From NCBI GenBank assembly GCA_015146655.1, contig VKHL01000005.1:248001-312000 (forward strand): DNA of 64,000 bases, given 5' to 3'. The notes beneath the pieces were generated by a model. It worked only from the letters and a program-made list of their open reading frames with translations. It ran no database searches and was not told where the DNA came from. This document shows, piece after piece, positions 274 to 15,276 of this stretch (positions are counted from its first letter, which is position 1; the number at the start of each line of letters is the position of its first letter). Source of the DNA: Ochromonas danica (Eukaryota > Sar > Chrysophyceae > Chromulinales > Chromulinaceae). The position numbers and the translations under genes were made by a program.

Positions 274-3200
274 ATGAGGATGATGAAGAGGCTGTTTGCT
301 TGCCTACTCCTTCTACTTATTGCAGTAGTTGGGGCCAATATAGGGCCAGTATTTTTGAAAACGAGAAATCCACTATCATCGCACTCCAACTCTTTGTCAA
401 TACCTCCAACCACACCTTCCAATGAGAGCATCGATGAGTCCTTCTATTCGCGTCAATTGCTCGTCTATGGAAAGTCAGCACAAGCCAAACTAGCCAATGC
501 AAGAGCACTCTTGGTTGGTAGAGGGCCTCTTCTGGATGAAACTGTCAAGAATTTGGCTCTATCTGGAGTGGGCAGTCTGGTCTTGTTGGCCGAGAAGAAG
601 GCAGAAGTAGAAGCAGAAGCACTGCAACAGCTCTCCTCCTCCCCTCCAACAGCATCTTTGTGTGGCCAGGATGTTGATCTAGCCGAGTACGCCAAGTCTC
701 TCAATCCTCATATCAAGGTCAGTGGCGGTAGTGAGGTTATGACCTGTTCATTGCCTCTAACTGTGTCTGTCTATACTAACTAAACACGTGATAATAAGGT
801 TGAAGTAGTCCCTCTAGAAAGCTTCTCACAGGCTAGTTCTTTGTTGTCTGGAGGTCATTTTGATGTGGTCATTCTGTGTGACGAGGGCTTGGATTCCCTC
901 AAGGCATGGAATGCTCTCAGCCGACAACAAAATGTTAAAATGATCTCCTCTACTGTAGTGGGGGTTACAGGGATGATCTTCACAGACTTGTTGGATAGAT
1001 TTGTTGTGGAAGATATTGAAGGAGAGTCTCATAAAGAGGTAGACATCAATCGCGTTGTTCCTTCTTGTTTCCATTGGATGCTCAGATTGGCTTTCCGTCA
1101 ATGCACAGGTACCGCTTAGTAGCTCGTGGGAAGGATTGGATAGTCCAAGTGATGATGCTCTTCTGCTTTGTATTGAGAGCATTCCAGAGGAGAAGCTGGG
1201 CTATGGCTTGAGCGATGTCATCGAGCTGCGCTCCAGTACAGACAGTCAATTAGTAATTCCAGCGACTGTAGAGAAAGTCATCAACACTCATAAAGTCGTA
1301 GTCCGCATTGATGGTCATAGCAAGTATCAAGAGTTGGTTCATGCAATCGAGAATCAATCAGGCCTGGCACAAAAGGTAGAGTGACTGTATCTGAAGTTGA
1401 TATGATATGATATGATATGATATGATATGTTGTTATAATCTTTGGTTTCATATTCTCTCTGTTCTCTCTTAGTTGAAGGCACAAAAGATTGTGAAGCATG
1501 AAAGCCTTCTCCAACAACTGTTGAAGCCTTCATTCAATCCAGCCAATGGCTGTTTGTCGCCGAAGCAAGATCGAGCTCTCTCGCTCGTCTTACTTGCTGC
1601 CTTCAAAGCCCGAGAGACGCTCAATAAGAGACTGCCGAAAAGTCGGAAGTTAACAAAACTGATATTTATTTCATCTGTGTTGCATGAGCTAAAGCTTCTT
1701 GGTGTGTCGAATGCAATGCTACCTATCAAGAAAGGTGGATTAGTTGGCGCTGATTGGGTAAAGCTTGTGGTGGATGGGTTTTACTCGAGTCAGTGCTCTC
1801 AATGTCCTGCTACAATCTCGATTATGGGAGCGATCGCAGCCCAAGAAGCTATCAAGGCTATTACTCAAATGTATGAGCCAATTTCTCAATTCCTCATGTT
1901 TGAATCGATTGATGCTTTACCTTTGAAGCCGCCGGGTTTTGATGAAGAAGAGATAGAGACAAAAGAGAGAGTCAGCTGCTATGGTTCAGAATTAATGGAA
2001 GAGATAGCAGGATTACGAGTCTTTGTCATTGGTTCAGGAGCTATTGGCTCGGAACTGTTGAAGAACTTTGCTTTGCTTGGTGTGGGTGTAGGTAAGAAGA
2101 ACAACACTTTGACCAGCACTGTGGATGGCAATTATAGCGCCAGCCCAGCAACCTTGTGGGAGGAATTCGGCTTGGCTGAAGGAGGCATTCTCATCACAGA
2201 CATGGATAGCATTGAGCGCAGCAATCTCAATCGCCAACTACTCTTCAGGTTCATATATTTCCTTTTACTCGACCTTTCTCTATTAATGTTGCCTCACATT
2301 GTTGTTCTTGTGTGCTTACAGAGAAAGACATATTGGCCTTCCAAAGGCATTGGTTGCCGCTGAACAAGTGCGGGGCATTCGACCTGATCTGCGCATTCAT
2401 GGCCTCACTTTAAAAGTTAGCAGTGAAACGGAAGAGATCTTTAGTGCCGCCTTCTGGCAGTCAACAGATGTGGTCATCACTGCTTTGGACAATGTTGAAG
2501 CCAGGAAGTATGTTGACGAGCAATGCTTGAAATATAAATGTTTTATGTTGGATTCAGGCACTCTCGGCACGAAAGCAAATACGCAGGTAGATACACAGTT
2601 GCAAATATTGCGTTTCTCTCAGTTTTATCATTCATATCTGCATGAACTGTATTTTGTGGTCCGTCAGGTGGTTATACCTTATCTAACTGAAACCTACTCA
2701 TCTTCTGCTGATCCTCCGGAGGAAGCTGTCCCGTTGTGTACTATCAAGAGCTTTCCTTATCAAGTAAGGGCATCCATTATCAAGTTGCTAACTTTTGCAC
2801 TATTTTGAAACTAATTTTTTCATCGACATTTTAATCTACTCGTTAGCCTGAACATTGTGTGGCCTGGGCGAAAAATATGTTTAACCAGTATTTTCAACAG
2901 GACATTCAGAACTTGAACACTATCTGCTCCACACTCTCTTCCTCGTCTTTGCCATCGAAAGATATTCTACAATCATGGAGTGTCGAGCTTACCCATGAAG
3001 ATCAAATTTCGTTGATTCGTTCCTTGTCGTGTCAAGGTCAATCGTCTGCAGACATTCGATCTGCACTCACGTGGGCGAGAGAGACATTCATCACAATCTT
3101 TCGAAAAGAAGTCGAACAACTGATGCGAGATCACCCATTAGACTCTCTGGATGATGAAGGATTGCCTTTTTGGGGTGGATCCCGGAGAGTACCTAAACTT

Positions 3201-5540
3201 ATTCCATTTGATTTGAATGATCCTCTCGTTGCAGAATTCTTGGTATGGTCAACGTTTTTGTACTTGCGATCTTATGGTATGAAGCCGACTACATTCGAGA
3301 CTATAATTCAGGAGATGAAAAGTCAACAACCCATTGAAACAGTTGCATCCAATCCGCTGGGCGAACAATCCACTGCCCTTGAGCAACTGGCCGAAAAGTT
3401 CTATTCCCAAGACAATTTCAATAGATGGAAACATCTACAAAGCATGGAATTTGAGAAAGATGATCTTTCTTTGGGGCATGTTCAATGGGTGAGAGCTGCA
3501 GCCAATCTGCGTGCTCGACTCTATGGCATTCGCGAGCTGGAGACGTTGGAGGTACAAAAGCTTGCAGGTAATATTATCCCTGCATTGGCAACAACAACTT
3601 CAGTGGTTGGAGGGTTGATTACTCAAGAATTAGTCAAAGTTGCGACAGAGCGACTTGCTTTCAAACACTTCCAACAGTCTCGTCTATCGGCCCCATTGCC
3701 ACCTCTCCCACCAGCTATCAATAGTCAACCTGCTCGAAGAAGATCTTTGTCACGATGGTTTCGGTCCAAGTTACCATCATTAGCTTCATTCAATAAGAGT
3801 CCCTTCAAAGATGAAGATGAAAGAGAGGAAGAAGGAGAAACAGCAAAGAAGATGGTTCCTCTTCCTGGGAATGACCCTCGATTGGAAGCGTTCAAGCTCT
3901 TCATTCGCCAGAATAAAGACAGATTGCTAAAGAAGTTTCGCAACGCTTTTGTCAATCTTGCCAGACCGTTGGTGGCATTCACTCAACCCATGGAGGCTCC
4001 GCCGTCCACTTTCTTGCATTATGCCTACAATCTGTGGGATCAGATTGAAGTACCCATCGACCTGGAAGATTTGACTTTGCGAGGACTTGCAGATTATTTG
4101 GATCGCCAGTTTGACTTACAGATCGTCTCGGTGGCCATGGAAGATCAATTGCTCTTCGCTAACTTCTTGCCCGACAAAGAGCAGCTGCTGGACCTTCCTC
4201 TTATGGATGTATTGGATAAACTCTCACAGGAGATGGAGGAACCAACTAGCGAGAGGGAGGAAAGAACTTCTTCGGGTAATATCTACGAAGGTGGGGCCGT
4301 ACCAACTGCCAGGCCCACTCCCCTTCCTGCTTCCTCTGAATGGACCTCTCCTTCAGAGAATCTCAGTAGTGAAGAAGACAAACTATTGCCAATTAGCGAA
4401 GACAAAGAACAAATAGCACCTTCTGCCCAGGAAGAAGAGCCGAATGAGGAAGAAGAAGGGGAGAAAGATGGCGAGGGTGAGGATGAAGAGGAAGATGATG
4501 GTGATGATGATGATGATGAGGAGGAGGAGGATGAAATCAAGGAGAAGGCGGGAAAAACCGAGGAGGAGGGTGAAGACGAAGAGGATGATGAAGATGAAAA
4601 CGATAAAGAGGAAAGAAAAGACAGCTGCCAGCAAGCCCAGGTGGATATGATGAGCACCTCATATGATATATCGAGCGAAGCTTCGTCTGATTTCCGAACT
4701 TCAGCGAGCGAAGAAGTTGTGAGTGGGAATGATGCACTCGCTGAAGAAATTGAATCCATAGATGACATTGATGTCGAAGAGGAAGAGAGCAACGAGGAGA
4801 TCGACGAAGATGGGGACAATAAAGAGGGGAATGAGGAGGAAGACCATGAAGAGGAAGAGGAGGGCGGTGTTGAGGAGGAAAGAGAGAGAGTTGCGGCAGA
4901 TCCCGATCTCTCAAGTGAGAAGACGCCTTTGTCGTCTAGATCTCTGGATGGCGATGAAATTGATGAAAACACCAATAGCAATGAAGACAACGAAGAAGAT
5001 GAGAATGGTGAAGACAATGAAGAAGATGAGAATGGTGAAGACAACGAAGAAGACGAGAATGGTGAAGACAATGAAGAAGACGAGAGTGGTGAAGACAATG
5101 AAGAGGGCGACAGTGGGGATGATAAGCGCGGCCAAGATGTAGAAGCAAGGAAAGAAAGGGAAATGTCTCAGGAGGATGCAAGTGACCAGATCTTGCCTAC
5201 AGAGTCTCCTTCGTCACAGGAGAGAGATGATGATATAGCAGCCACTTCTTCCATCCCTTCTCTTCCCAGGTCGACAAAGCTACCTCTGCGTGCCGGCAGA
5301 AGTCGGCGCTTCCTAGAGGGCAAAAAGTTCATTGTCTTGGATGTGATTGCTGCTCTGCCTAGTGAAGGAGGTGATGAAGACGATGGCTTCGAGGTGCATA
5401 TGCCACCCATAATAGTGAAGATAGGAGAAAAGAAGTCGCCATCATGCTACTCGCCAAAGCAAGCTTCTTGGAGGAACAGATGGAGAGGGTGGTTGCAATC
5501 AGTGACGACGAAGATTCGACCCAAACGTGAAAAGCGATGA
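274..5540 (+). CDS. UBA1: Ubiquitin-activating enzyme E1 with N-terminal signal peptide
   Basis: E1 activates ubiquitin with ATP, carries it on a cysteine and passes it to E2 enzymes. Seven exons fit: 274-717, 799-1038, 1109-1375, 1473-2248, 2322-2586, 2668-2763, 2847-5540, giving 1593 residues against about 1050 usual. Residues 1-20 form a hydrophobic signal peptide, followed by about 30 Ser/Thr/Pro-rich residues before the normal E1 start (FYSRQLLVYG). The active adenylation domain begins near residue 500 (GSGAIGSELL), followed by TDMDSIERSNLNRQ and DSGTLGTK. The catalytic Cys is about residue 688 in PLCTIKSFP. The C-terminal ubiquitin-fold domain (from about 1090) is split by about 350 acidic residues and resumes near 1515. 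The signal peptide suggests a periplastid (SELMA) E1 rather than the cytosolic one; this is inference. The enzyme family is certain. Confidence 0.93.
1376..1472 (+). repeat. Intron 3 of the E1 gene with (TATGA)n microsatellite
   Basis: GT-AG intron of 97 bp. About six copies of the pentanucleotide TATGA lie at 1399-1429, followed by a pyrimidine-rich tract and the acceptor at 1471-1472. Confidence 0.8.
4978..5115 (+). repeat. 27-bp tandem repeat coding acidic units
   Basis: About four and a half copies of a 27-bp unit encode the nine-residue unit GEDNEEDEN inside the acidic insert of the E1. The copies differ mostly at silent positions (GAC/GAT, AAC/AAT), so they are recent but not identical. 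The frame is kept throughout. Confidence 0.85.
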
Positions 5541-12112: not shown

Positions 12113-12333
12113 GTTCTATTAGGCTGTCCAAAGTGATGATTGAGAGGGAAACCTCTAGGCCGCTAAATCGCTAGATTCGCCGCCTTATCTTTAACTTCCC
12201 GCCAGAAAGCCAGAAGGAGGCGGTTATCACAAAGTGGCCAGAGCCCAGCACTGCACTGATATTCCGTTCAATTTTAATATTAGCTATCAGAGTTTGATTG
12301 GATCATCAACTCCATAGGAATTTATTGATCTCC

Positions 12334-15276
12334 ATGAGTGTATTTCAACTCCAAGAATGGTGGGGATTGAAAGTTTCACAAGACAATGAAGAATTCGATT
12401 TCTCTTGCTTTGCTGTGGGAAATGTTGATAATGCCTCACCGCCAACTGACAAGATCGCCATCGCCTCCCAGCAAGGCATACTGCGTATCTATCACCCAAC
12501 GAAACCGCAATTCCGTATAGAAGATCTTATCTATGAAGGATCGCTGGGTGCACCCATCTTACAAGTATTGTTGGGAAGGTTCATTCCATCTAATGAGACC
12601 TTAGCTTTGGCCATTCTTCATCCACGCGAGTTAGTTGTCTATGAAGTATTACCACAAGGTGGCAAGGATGGACGAGTTAACTTCCATACCTTACAAAAGT
12701 TATACAAGCATGATTTAGGTGTTGGAGGAAAGCATTTTACGGCCTATAATATGTGTCACGGTCCTTTTGGTGGTTCACGTGGACGTGACATGATTCTCGT
12801 TCAGTCTCTTGATGGGAAATTACAGATATTCGAGCAGTCAGCTAATGCCTTTAGTAGACAGCTTGTAGAATGTCTCATTCCTGGACCCATAGCTTATCTA
12901 CCAAAGCTTGATGCATTCATCACTACCAACCATGCTTGCCAAGCTGAGTGTTATCGGTATCAAGTCCTAGCAAGCTCACAAGGAGATGTGGGAGTTAAAA
13001 GTAGCGATTTGAAAGAAGGAAAAAGTGAAAGCATCTCATCTTTGACCATGCAGAAAGTTCGTCCTGCCTTGGTTGAATGGTCAGTAAACCTTGGCGAGCC
13101 GTGTAGACAGATTCTCATTGGCAGCTTCTCTAGTACCACGACAGATTCCCAGTCTTCTTCTTTTAGCAGGAATGGCAATGGGAATGGATCGAACGCTGCC
13201 AACAGTGAGGTGTTGTTTATTTGTGAGAAGTCAATCTTCTTGGTGAAGGCGGAAAGTGGTGGAGTGATCCAACAACGCCGATTGGACCGCAGCGAAGCAT
13301 CTTGTGCCACTCTTGTCCCCTGTGAGGGTGGGCATCCAAACTCTTACAATTTCATACTAGCAGGACAAGATGGCACAGTGCAGGTTTATGCCAACTTCAA
13401 CTTAGTTTGGGCGGCTCGATTGGCAAGTGATGGTCCAATTGTTCATGCATCTGTGGGTACCTTCGGAGGAGTGCCCGGCCTCATAGTCACCTTGGATGAT
13501 GATGGACGACTCTCTATTAGCTATTTAGGCACCAAACCTCCTGTGACGGCCGTGCTCAGCCATGTCCGTGATTTAGACTATGAGAAAATCGACGAGGAAC
13601 ATCGTGCTTTGCTGAATGTCATTCGCGAGGCACAAACAGAAGGAAGAACAGAGCCCGTGGAGAAATTGCTGATTAAGTCGCAGCTGTCGCGAGGATTAGA
13701 AGTTGATGGAATGGTAGATCGCGAGGTGCCTCTAGGCAATCTAGTGCCACTCTTCCCACCTGGTTCAGCTCATCTGTCCAACATTGCCGAGCAAGTAGTC
13801 AAAACTACTGTAAGATTGTTCCTCTCCTCGTCCGGTGATCGGTCCGTCTCCAATGTTAGCATTACCGTAGCTGGGCCTTCGCATCTGCTCATCATCCCAC
13901 AACAAGTGCAATTGACAAAGGTTGGTGGATTGCGCACAACCCCCGAAGTTATCAAGGTGGTACTTTACGCCATTCGAGGCACCCTCCCCACCACTTCGGA
14001 CATTGTTGTGACAGCATCTTATACCTCAATTCGAGGAGAACCACGGGTCACAACACACACATTCATGGCACCTCTTTGCTGTGCCATACGACCCCGTCTC
14101 CCAAATAAAACCGCTTCCTGCAAAGTTGTATTAGACACGGACTATCCTGCGGTTGCCTTGACAGATCTCTTTTCCGATGTTTTACAGGCTTATAATGATG
14201 CAGGGCTTGATCTTGCTGAAGGATTAGGTGGCAATGCCACACAAGCACTGGGGTTTTCTCTTGTTACTGGACCATCCAGTGCGGCAAATAGCTTGTCTGC
14301 TTCTCTTACTTCTCCTGGAGCAAAGTCTGTGGGGGGTCTTGGGGTCAGTTTATCCTCCCCATCCAATACAAGCACTTCATCTGTAGTGTCAATCTTAGTA
14401 TCCAAGAATGCTGGGCGTTATCGCCTGCAGGCAGACAGCTATCCTCAACTTGTTTTGTTGTTAGCAGAAGTGGAAAAGCGTTTGAAAGTGCGACTGTCTA
14501 CCATGCCCAATGCCAACCTTTCTGTTATGAGTCCTTCCTCAACCGTTGCTGCCCCAGGTGCAACAAAAGAAGTTAGTGGAGAAGTTATGGTGCGATATCT
14601 TGACACTTTACCTTTAGAAGATTATTTTTCACTGATTGAACAACATCTGGTTGGTCGAATGAAACTTATGGAAATGGAGAACGAGTTGGAGTTAGCAGCG
14701 CAACGCTTTCGATTGGTACAAAAGCGTCTGTTGGTACGTTTTAAAGACCGTCATCCCTCTCCTCTGCACGGCTTGGATTTGGTATTACAAGAAGTATATG
14801 CTGACTTGCTTCGCCAAGGTGATTCTGTGGAGGCACAGCAGAAATATCTGCAATTGTTAGAAGTTGACTTGGCGGCTTTCTCGCGCCTGATCAGCCACTT
14901 AATTATCATGAAGAACAATCTCTCCTCAGCCGACCGTGTCGTCTTGCAAGCTCATCTTTGTCCTGAAGCGGCCAGTGGAAGTGCTGGACCTGCTGATCAG
15001 GGTTGGGAGGAGACCGTCACTGCCTCGTTGAATTACCTGTTGCGCACAACTTTGAGTAAATCGGGTGGAAGTACCAAAGAGTCCTCTAATTCTGCCGGGA
15101 TGGCTTCCTCTTCCAGTTCTTTAGAGATTCCAAAGAACACAGATGCCTTGCGCAAGGCTTTGCAGCAGGTGATGGATCGTCTCGAGAAAGGTCTCCGTTT
15201 AGCTCCCGCGGCACAAGCTAGCGGTGCTCAATCTCCTTCGCCTGTTCCAACTCCATCTACCTCTTCCAAAAAGTGA
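12334..15276 (+). CDS. BBS9: BBS9/PTHB1, BBSome subunit
   Basis: BBS9 is a core subunit of the BBSome, the coat complex that moves membrane proteins in cilia. A single exon of 980 residues (human about 887) starts MSVFQLQEWWGLKV. The start is chosen because it aligns with the family N-terminus; the in-frame ATG at 12298 adds only 12 residues. N-terminal propeller landmarks are NVDN, DKIAIASQQG.LRIYHP, GPFGGSRGRDMILVQSLDGKL and IPGPIAYLPKLDAF. GVPGLIVTLDDDGRLSISYLGT and DLDYEKIDEE follow, then the GAE/platform region and a C-terminal helical zone (about 750-900). It shows that the organism builds a cilium. It has no intron, unlike most genes here. Confidence 0.93.
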   Translation: MSVFQLQEWWGLKVSQDNEEFDFSCFAVGNVDNASPPTDKIAIASQQGILRIYHPTKPQFRIEDLIYEGSLGAPILQVLLGRFIPSNETLALAILHPRELVVYEVLPQGGKDGRVNFHTLQKLYKHDLGVGGKHFTAYNMCHGPFGGSRGRDMILVQSLDGKLQIFEQSANAFSRQLVECLIPGPIAYLPKLDAFITTNHACQAECYRYQVLASSQGDVGVKSSDLKEGKSESISSLTMQKVRPALVEWSVNLGEPCRQILIGSFSSTTTDSQSSSFSRNGNGNGSNAANSEVLFICEKSIFLVKAESGGVIQQRRLDRSEASCATLVPCEGGHPNSYNFILAGQDGTVQVYANFNLVWAARLASDGPIVHASVGTFGGVPGLIVTLDDDGRLSISYLGTKPPVTAVLSHVRDLDYEKIDEEHRALLNVIREAQTEGRTEPVEKLLIKSQLSRGLEVDGMVDREVPLGNLVPLFPPGSAHLSNIAEQVVKTTVRLFLSSSGDRSVSNVSITVAGPSHLLIIPQQVQLTKVGGLRTTPEVIKVVLYAIRGTLPTTSDIVVTASYTSIRGEPRVTTHTFMAPLCCAIRPRLPNKTASCKVVLDTDYPAVALTDLFSDVLQAYNDAGLDLAEGLGGNATQALGFSLVTGPSSAANSLSASLTSPGAKSVGGLGVSLSSPSNTSTSSVVSILVSKNAGRYRLQADSYPQLVLLLAEVEKRLKVRLSTMPNANLSVMSPSSTVAAPGATKEVSGEVMVRYLDTLPLEDYFSLIEQHLVGRMKLMEMENELELAAQRFRLVQKRLLVRFKDRHPSPLHGLDLVLQEVYADLLRQGDSVEAQQKYLQLLEVDLAAFSRLISHLIIMKNNLSSADRVVLQAHLCPEAASGSAGPADQGWEETVTASLNYLLRTTLSKSGGSTKESSNSAGMASSSSSLEIPKNTDALRKALQQVMDRLEKGLRLAPAAQASGAQSPSPVPTPSTSSKK

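Follow-up and report, generated by a model that had tools for sequence, protein, structure and literature searches.

A leader-bearing ubiquitin E1 as the likely periplastid E1 of SELMA in an alga with a red-type complex plastid

The window analyzed here is a stretch of 64,000 nucleotides (C5:248001-312000) from a genome assembly of 31.2 Mb in 337 contigs, and it carries a gene for a ubiquitin E1 in which the conserved core is preceded by an N-terminal leader. In the gene model, which was spliced by eye from open reading frames, seven exons (274-717, 799-1038, 1109-1375, 1473-2248, 2322-2586, 2668-2763 and 2847-5540) are separated by six introns of 70-97 nt, all with GT-AG ends, and the reading frame remains intact across the seven exons for 1593 codons. 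The original prediction had been drawn at 274-717; this interval is exon 1 of the E1, and the gene model runs on to 5540. Exon 1 translates as MRMMKRLFACLLLLLIAVVGANIGPVFLKTRNPLSSHSNSLSIPPTTPSNESIDESFYSRQ. The ATG at 274 lies just downstream of an in-frame stop (TGA, 259-261), and methionines occur at residues 1, 3 and 4, with the following one at residue 196. Since these three are the only methionines that it encodes, exon 1 offers no start at the E1 core; the downstream start that would have spoken against a leader was looked for in exon 1 and not found. The features of the gene, in window coordinates, are as follows.

274..5540, + strand: leader-bearing ubiquitin E1 gene model, 1593 aa (exons joined by eye, and translation)
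274..336, + strand: signal peptide, residues 1-20/21 (hydropathy test; cleavage by eye)
337..426, + strand: transit-peptide-like stretch, residues 22-51 (composition; +1 residue not Phe, Tyr, Trp or Leu)
427..717, + strand: conserved E1 start (SIDESFYSRQL...) with the initial portion of the first ThiF domain, that of inactive adenylation (Pfam and alignment)
2031..2048, + strand: GSGAIG nucleotide-binding motif in the second ThiF domain, residues 504-509 (alignment)
2092..2148, + strand: 57-nt in-frame stretch with GT...AG ends, within a 27-residue insertion (splice-end reading)
2737..2739, + strand: catalytic cysteine candidate C688 in VPLCTIKSFP (aligned with the PLCT cysteine of Uba1)
4011..4229, + strand: ubiquitin-fold domain (UFD), its initial two thirds (Pfam E1_UFD)
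4230..5270, + strand: 347-residue insert with 43% Asp+Glu, residues 1158-1504 (same open exon)
5298..5438, + strand: possible last UFD strands, with a basic tail running on from there until the stop codon at 5540 (Pfam after rejoining; weak)

Pfam searches of the exon frames returned ThiF pieces, UBA_E1_SCCH (E = 9.3e-41) and E1_UFD (E = 7.9e-08), with the first ThiF domain, at 27 bits (E = 2.9e-06), just missing its cut-off of 28.1 bits. Searched with phmmer, the segment 1-1157 of the 1593 residues matched 53 PDB sequences at E <=0.001, the best being a Uba1 (5tr4, 417 bits), with a UBA1 (9mc4) lower at 384 bits; we take the former to be the yeast and the latter the human protein. The alignment to solved Uba1 begins at residue 52, and GSGAIG, TDMDSIE, LDNVEAR and C688 all align with it, as they mostly do with the two paralogues (C58 and C92) described below. 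The catalytic role of C688 is presumed from that of the PLCT cysteine in Uba1. With two ThiF domains, SCCH, UFD and the catalytic residues, the predicted protein can be classed as a UBA1-type ubiquitin E1. The 27-residue insertion aligns with neither the solved Uba1 nor the paralogues, and the stretch at 2092-2148 within it may be read either as coding sequence or as a seventh intron. The UFD, the domain of E1 that recruits E2s, contains the acidic insert. When the two sides of the insert were rejoined in silico, the UFD score rose from 35.7 to 37.4 bits, and the match reached over positions 1-81 of the 93 in the profile where it had spanned 1-63 before; the side at 5298-5438 on its own gave zero Pfam matches. 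These values weakly suggest that the UFD picks up again beyond the insert. At a guess, the insert might be a flexible acidic segment that tethers basic partners, and it constitutes an oddity within the E2-recruiting UFD of a likely SELMA E1.

SELMA, a translocon of ERAD origin, sits in the second outermost membrane of the plastid, and the gene had originally been proposed to encode its E1 on the strength of the N-terminus. That proposal had read a hydrophobic signal peptide, a Ser/Thr-rich, acid-poor stretch ahead of the E1 start and the lack of Phe at the likely cleavage site, and all three features are borne out. On the Kyte-Doolittle scale (13-residue stretches), the best stretch of the leader scores 3.43, against a maximum of 2.20 among the 1078 30-mers of the core. 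This value was reached by one of 20,000 shuffled 30-mers and, among the 130 ATG-initiated open reading frames of at least 60 aa in the window, by the E1 leader only. Residues 21-50 contain no Asp or Glu and nine Ser/Thr, and the net charge over residues 22-50 is +2; the leader thus combines a signal peptide by hydropathy with a transit-like stretch by composition, as a SELMA E1 would. The -3,-1 rule, applied by eye, puts cleavage at VGA/N or VVG/A (slash, cut), which places Asn or Ala, and none of Phe, Tyr, Trp or Leu, at +1. PMC12136025 names the absence of an aromatic residue at +1 as the clearest sign of a periplastid leader; it also describes acidic residues as usual in periplastid leaders and rare in plastid ones, and gives periplastid prediction a precision of 79% and a recall of 25%, with a warning that such calls are uncertain. 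The first 15-25 transit positions, in which that text expects acidic residues, hold none in the E1. Since the same source ties an acid-free stretch to plastid leaders, this composition counts against a periplastid reading, and the acid-poor stretch, which the original prediction had taken as favoring the periplastid space, is weak support for it; acidic residues in the transit stretch are a tendency among periplastid leaders, not a defining rule.

The host is a photosynthetic alga, and its complex plastid is of the red type. The genome holds 47 matches to the Chloroa_b-bind (light-harvesting) profile, of which ten were sampled for their N-termini; one interrupted leader (L068) was left out, and the nine readable ones, several of them from near-identical paralogues, show Phe at +1 in eight cases and Leu in one (L069). 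A plastid-type GAPDH next to the C58 E1 has the leader STA/FAPTGR, and an Hsp70 on C54 has FHA/FLWTK, for which F leader it is termed plastidial. All 11 readable plastid leaders (nine light-harvesting, GAPDH and C54 Hsp70) therefore carry Phe (10) or Leu (1) at +1. Genes psaA and psaB were looked for in the genome and not found; our guess is that plastid contigs may be missing from the assembly. Three Hsp70 genes on the short contigs C311, C202 and C319 (L091-L093) are leaderless and have a bacterial or plastid DnaK look (VGIDLGTTNSVVA); they are perhaps plastid-encoded or from associated bacteria. Elsewhere in the window, at 12298-15270 (+), lies a gene for PTHB1/BBS9, a BBSome subunit, which suggests a flagellated alga and presumably counts against the host being a diatom.

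Further E1s were sought with a ThiF profile search of the genome, which returned 19 matches on 11 contigs. Using tblastn, the E1 core was compared with ten other ThiF loci; it matched two along the greater part of its length, C58 at 29.8% identity over 792 aa and C92 at 25.4% over 1049 aa, gave partial matches at five of the ten (L022, L023, L026, L028, L029) and no match at three (L024, L025, L027). A single scan of viral contigs found no E1 relatives. The E1 on C58 starts with MTTTSTTTTTTHTNEIDESLYSRQ, has a stop four codons upstream and scores 951 bits against UBA1 (9mc4); from its sequence, it is evidently the leaderless cytosolic UBA1. The UBA1-like E1 on C92 (525 bits against UBA1) starts with MSLSPPSKKARTSS, and its upstream frame, open for 64 codons, contains no Met; a leader was looked for there and none is in view. 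Both therefore look leaderless, barring an unseen upstream exon. Each was considered as the SELMA E1 in place of the window gene and set aside, C58 for the stop that immediately precedes its leaderless start and C92 for the 64 open upstream codons without Met. The separate leaderless cytosolic UBA1 expected beside a SELMA E1 is thus present as C58, with C92 likewise showing no visible leader; the search that the original prediction called for yielded two further UBA1-like E1s, and the genome with a single E1 that would have told against it was not found. At 30% and 29% identity to the C58 and C92 proteins, respectively, the window E1 is not a recent duplicate.

The search for SELMA partners covered DER1, CDC48_N, UFD1, UQ_con, ubiquitin, Hsp70 and NPL4, and leader-bearing forms were found of derlins, Cdc48, Ufd1, E2, ubiquitin and Hsp70. 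Two of the four DER1 matches have a leader and two do not, as is the case for one (C11) and the other (C121) of the two CDC48_N matches; one of three UFD1 matches has a leader (C1:592893), and the single genome match to NPL4 showed none. The 27 UQ_con matches correspond to 24 screened loci, the remaining three being second pieces of genes already screened. Hydrophobic starts were flagged in several of these loci and sorted by eye, a procedure that far-upstream leader exons would escape, and a leader was judged part of the domain gene only in C87, a UBE2W-like E2. Ten regions were looked at among 33 ubiquitin matches, with one leader-bearing ubiquitin on C21 (L078, C21:56540-56755, - strand), which has Asp for Lys at position 63 and keeps K48. 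Among 26 Hsp70 matches, 13 regions were looked at, C168 being left out of the leader sorting. The Hsp70 on C92 (L096 and L102, C92:79350-82750) combines a signal peptide and a non-Phe +1 residue with a C-terminal EEVD, the cytosol-type Hsp70 end; it is a cytosol-type chaperone routed into the secretory pathway. This combination is expected for the periplastid space, since that space is the former symbiont cytosol. The Hsp70 on C88, with a seemingly interrupted hydrophobic start, is taken as the ER form because it ends in DDEL. One of the leader-bearing derlins (L034, C5:124526-124891) is located on the same contig as the E1 gene, some 120 kb away, which does not amount to a cluster.

In five of the eight proteins (E1, C48 derlin, Ufd1, ubiquitin and Hsp70), the leader shares an open frame with the domain or with the beginning of the domain. 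A single short GT-AG intron joins leader and domain in the C11 Cdc48 (97 nt) and the C5 derlin (73 nt), other joins being possible, and many leader-domain joins are possible in the C87 E2. Read by eye, with alternative cuts such as G/L in the C48 derlin, the +1 residues are Asn in the E1, Asn and His in the derlins, Thr in Cdc48, Asn in Ufd1, Cys or Glu in the E2, His in ubiquitin and Asn in Hsp70. By these readings, Phe, Tyr, Trp or Leu occupies +1 in none of the eight SELMA-type leaders, compared with all 11 of the readable plastid ones.

A further element is shared by most of these leaders. The tail of ubiquitin itself, VLRLRGG, is copied in six of them with the pattern [VLC]L-x-[LI]RGG: VLALRGG/M in ubiquitin (L078, C21, - strand), LLSLRGG/A and LLSIRGG/A in the derlins (L033 and L034, - strand), VLLLRGG/A in Cdc48 (L036, - strand), LLTLRGG/K in the E2 (L044) and CLSLRGG/A in the C92 Hsp70 (L096), where the slash follows the motif; the last was found after Hsp70 had been set as a test of the motif. 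When the leaders were shuffled over 2000 rounds, no motif appeared in 1977 rounds, one in 22 and two in a single round, compared with the six of eight observed. Six-frame translation gave 16 distinct LxLRGG contexts (six leaders, four ubiquitin or ubiquitin-like tails and six others) in 670,482 residues, a background of loci chosen for these families in which overlapping loci are counted twice. On the basis of these 16 contexts and of the shuffled maximum of two in eight against six in eight, the notion that the motif is common background was rejected. The motif was not seen in the nine readable light-harvesting leaders, the GAPDH leader or the F leader of the C54 Hsp70, and those frames of the ER-type C88 Hsp70 that are visible do not show it either; its being a feature of every leader was accordingly also dismissed. 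Of the eight SELMA-type leaders, those of the E1 and Ufd1 lack it. Its absence from the E1, when six of the seven other leaders have it, counts against the E1 being part of SELMA.

The genome contains an E1 with catalytic residues and a leader, together with a leader-bearing partner set. We put the probability that the window gene codes for the E1 that serves SELMA in the periplastid space at about 0.92, and the original proposal to this effect is supported by the leader, by the leaderless UBA1 and by the partner set; the compartment, the partner pairs and a red-algal origin are what we infer. The signal peptide would bring the E1 into the ER or outermost membrane, and the transit-like stretch, which lacks an aromatic residue at +1, would, by the diatom rule, take it across the periplastid membrane and not the plastid envelope. 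There, the E1 would adenylate a dedicated periplastid ubiquitin, putatively the leader-bearing, K63-less ubiquitin of C21, and pass it via its catalytic cysteine to an E2, for which the leader-bearing UBE2W-like protein of C87 is the candidate. Ubiquitylated cargo would then be pulled in by the leader-bearing Cdc48-Ufd1 through the leader-bearing derlins.

Three other accounts of the gene have to be set against this one. We know of no ubiquitin cascade in the ER lumen or the cell exterior, and of no use for an E1 in the stroma. Were the leader simply a signal for secretion or for the ER, the site of action of the E1 would be the lumen or the cell exterior; from a signal peptide by itself, these destinations and the periplastid space cannot be told apart, and according to PMC12136025 they have been confused even experimentally, yet the occurrence of leader-bearing E1, E2, ubiquitin, Cdc48, Ufd1 and derlins in one genome makes this account very improbable. 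Delivery to the plastid stroma would agree with the acid-free, net positive stretch, a plastid-leader mark in that source, and is still less probable in view of the +1 position, where the E1 lacks the aromatic or Leu residue of all 11 readable plastid leaders. There is a similarly slight chance that the leader is an artefact of the gene model and the protein a cytosolic E1 paralogue: an upstream exon could splice into the 12 nt between the stop and the ATG, against which stand the in-frame stop itself, the three early methionines of exon 1, the contiguity of the leader with the E1 start and the presence of a cytosolic UBA1 on C58. A periplastid SELMA E1 remains the preferred reading.

Leader-bearing SELMA-type E1s are a class already known, of which the window E1 is one more likely case. 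With cytosolic UBA1 (the solved proteins, presumably human and yeast) it shares the domain order and the catalytic residues, and differs from it in the leader and the long acidic UFD insert, the UBA1 of C58 being 30% identical. Table 2 of PMC6610115, which lists sUba1 among SELMA versions, gives for Phaeodactylum a second UBA1 in addition to that of the host, as found here, and other SELMA parts likewise occur in the same genome as the window E1; relative to the sUba1 of red-derived-plastid algae, the window E1 comes from another alga. PMC7617431 reports that SELMA proteins of Kareniaceae carry signal and transit peptides, resembling the signal peptide and transit-like extension of the window E1, and that the SELMA versions of Uba1, Cdc48 and Der1 cluster inside the red-algal proteins or next to them. 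The apicoplast E1 of Plasmodium, which ubiquitylates in vitro together with its E2 and E3 (PMC3681736), is similarly the E1 of an ERAD-derived plastid import system; it differs in belonging to an apicomplexan with a non-photosynthetic plastid. Toxoplasma PUBL, a plastid ubiquitin-like protein, has an RGG just before its ubiquitin-like domain, described in PMC5487736 as a potential deubiquitinase site that proved dispensable; here, in contrast, LxLRGG is also found on derlins, Cdc48, E2 and Hsp70.

PMC5756292 postulates a leader peptidase in the periplastid space without giving it a name. One tentative idea, based on one genome and eight proteins and in our view possible but not probable, is that periplastid leaders may be cut at the ubiquitin-tail motif by a peptidase of the deubiquitinase type that acts in this space. 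Only in ubiquitin does the mature protein follow the motif immediately; the distance from the motif to the domain is about 20 residues in Hsp70 and some 20 to 120 in the derlins, Cdc48 and the E2, a less neat fit to a processing site. In the literature, most subscription papers aside, no description of LxLRGG on other periplastid proteins was found, the nearest cases being LRGGG in Omp85 (in a Phaeodactylum paper) and the RGG of PUBL. If the idea is true, the leader peptidase would be part of the very ubiquitin system fed by the window E1, and the leaders of the E1 and Ufd1, which have no motif, would be processed otherwise or kept. The leader motif is a more useful result than the E1 itself and the part worth following: as an element of six leaders of unrelated periplastid-type proteins, it provides a concrete, testable candidate for leader cutting.
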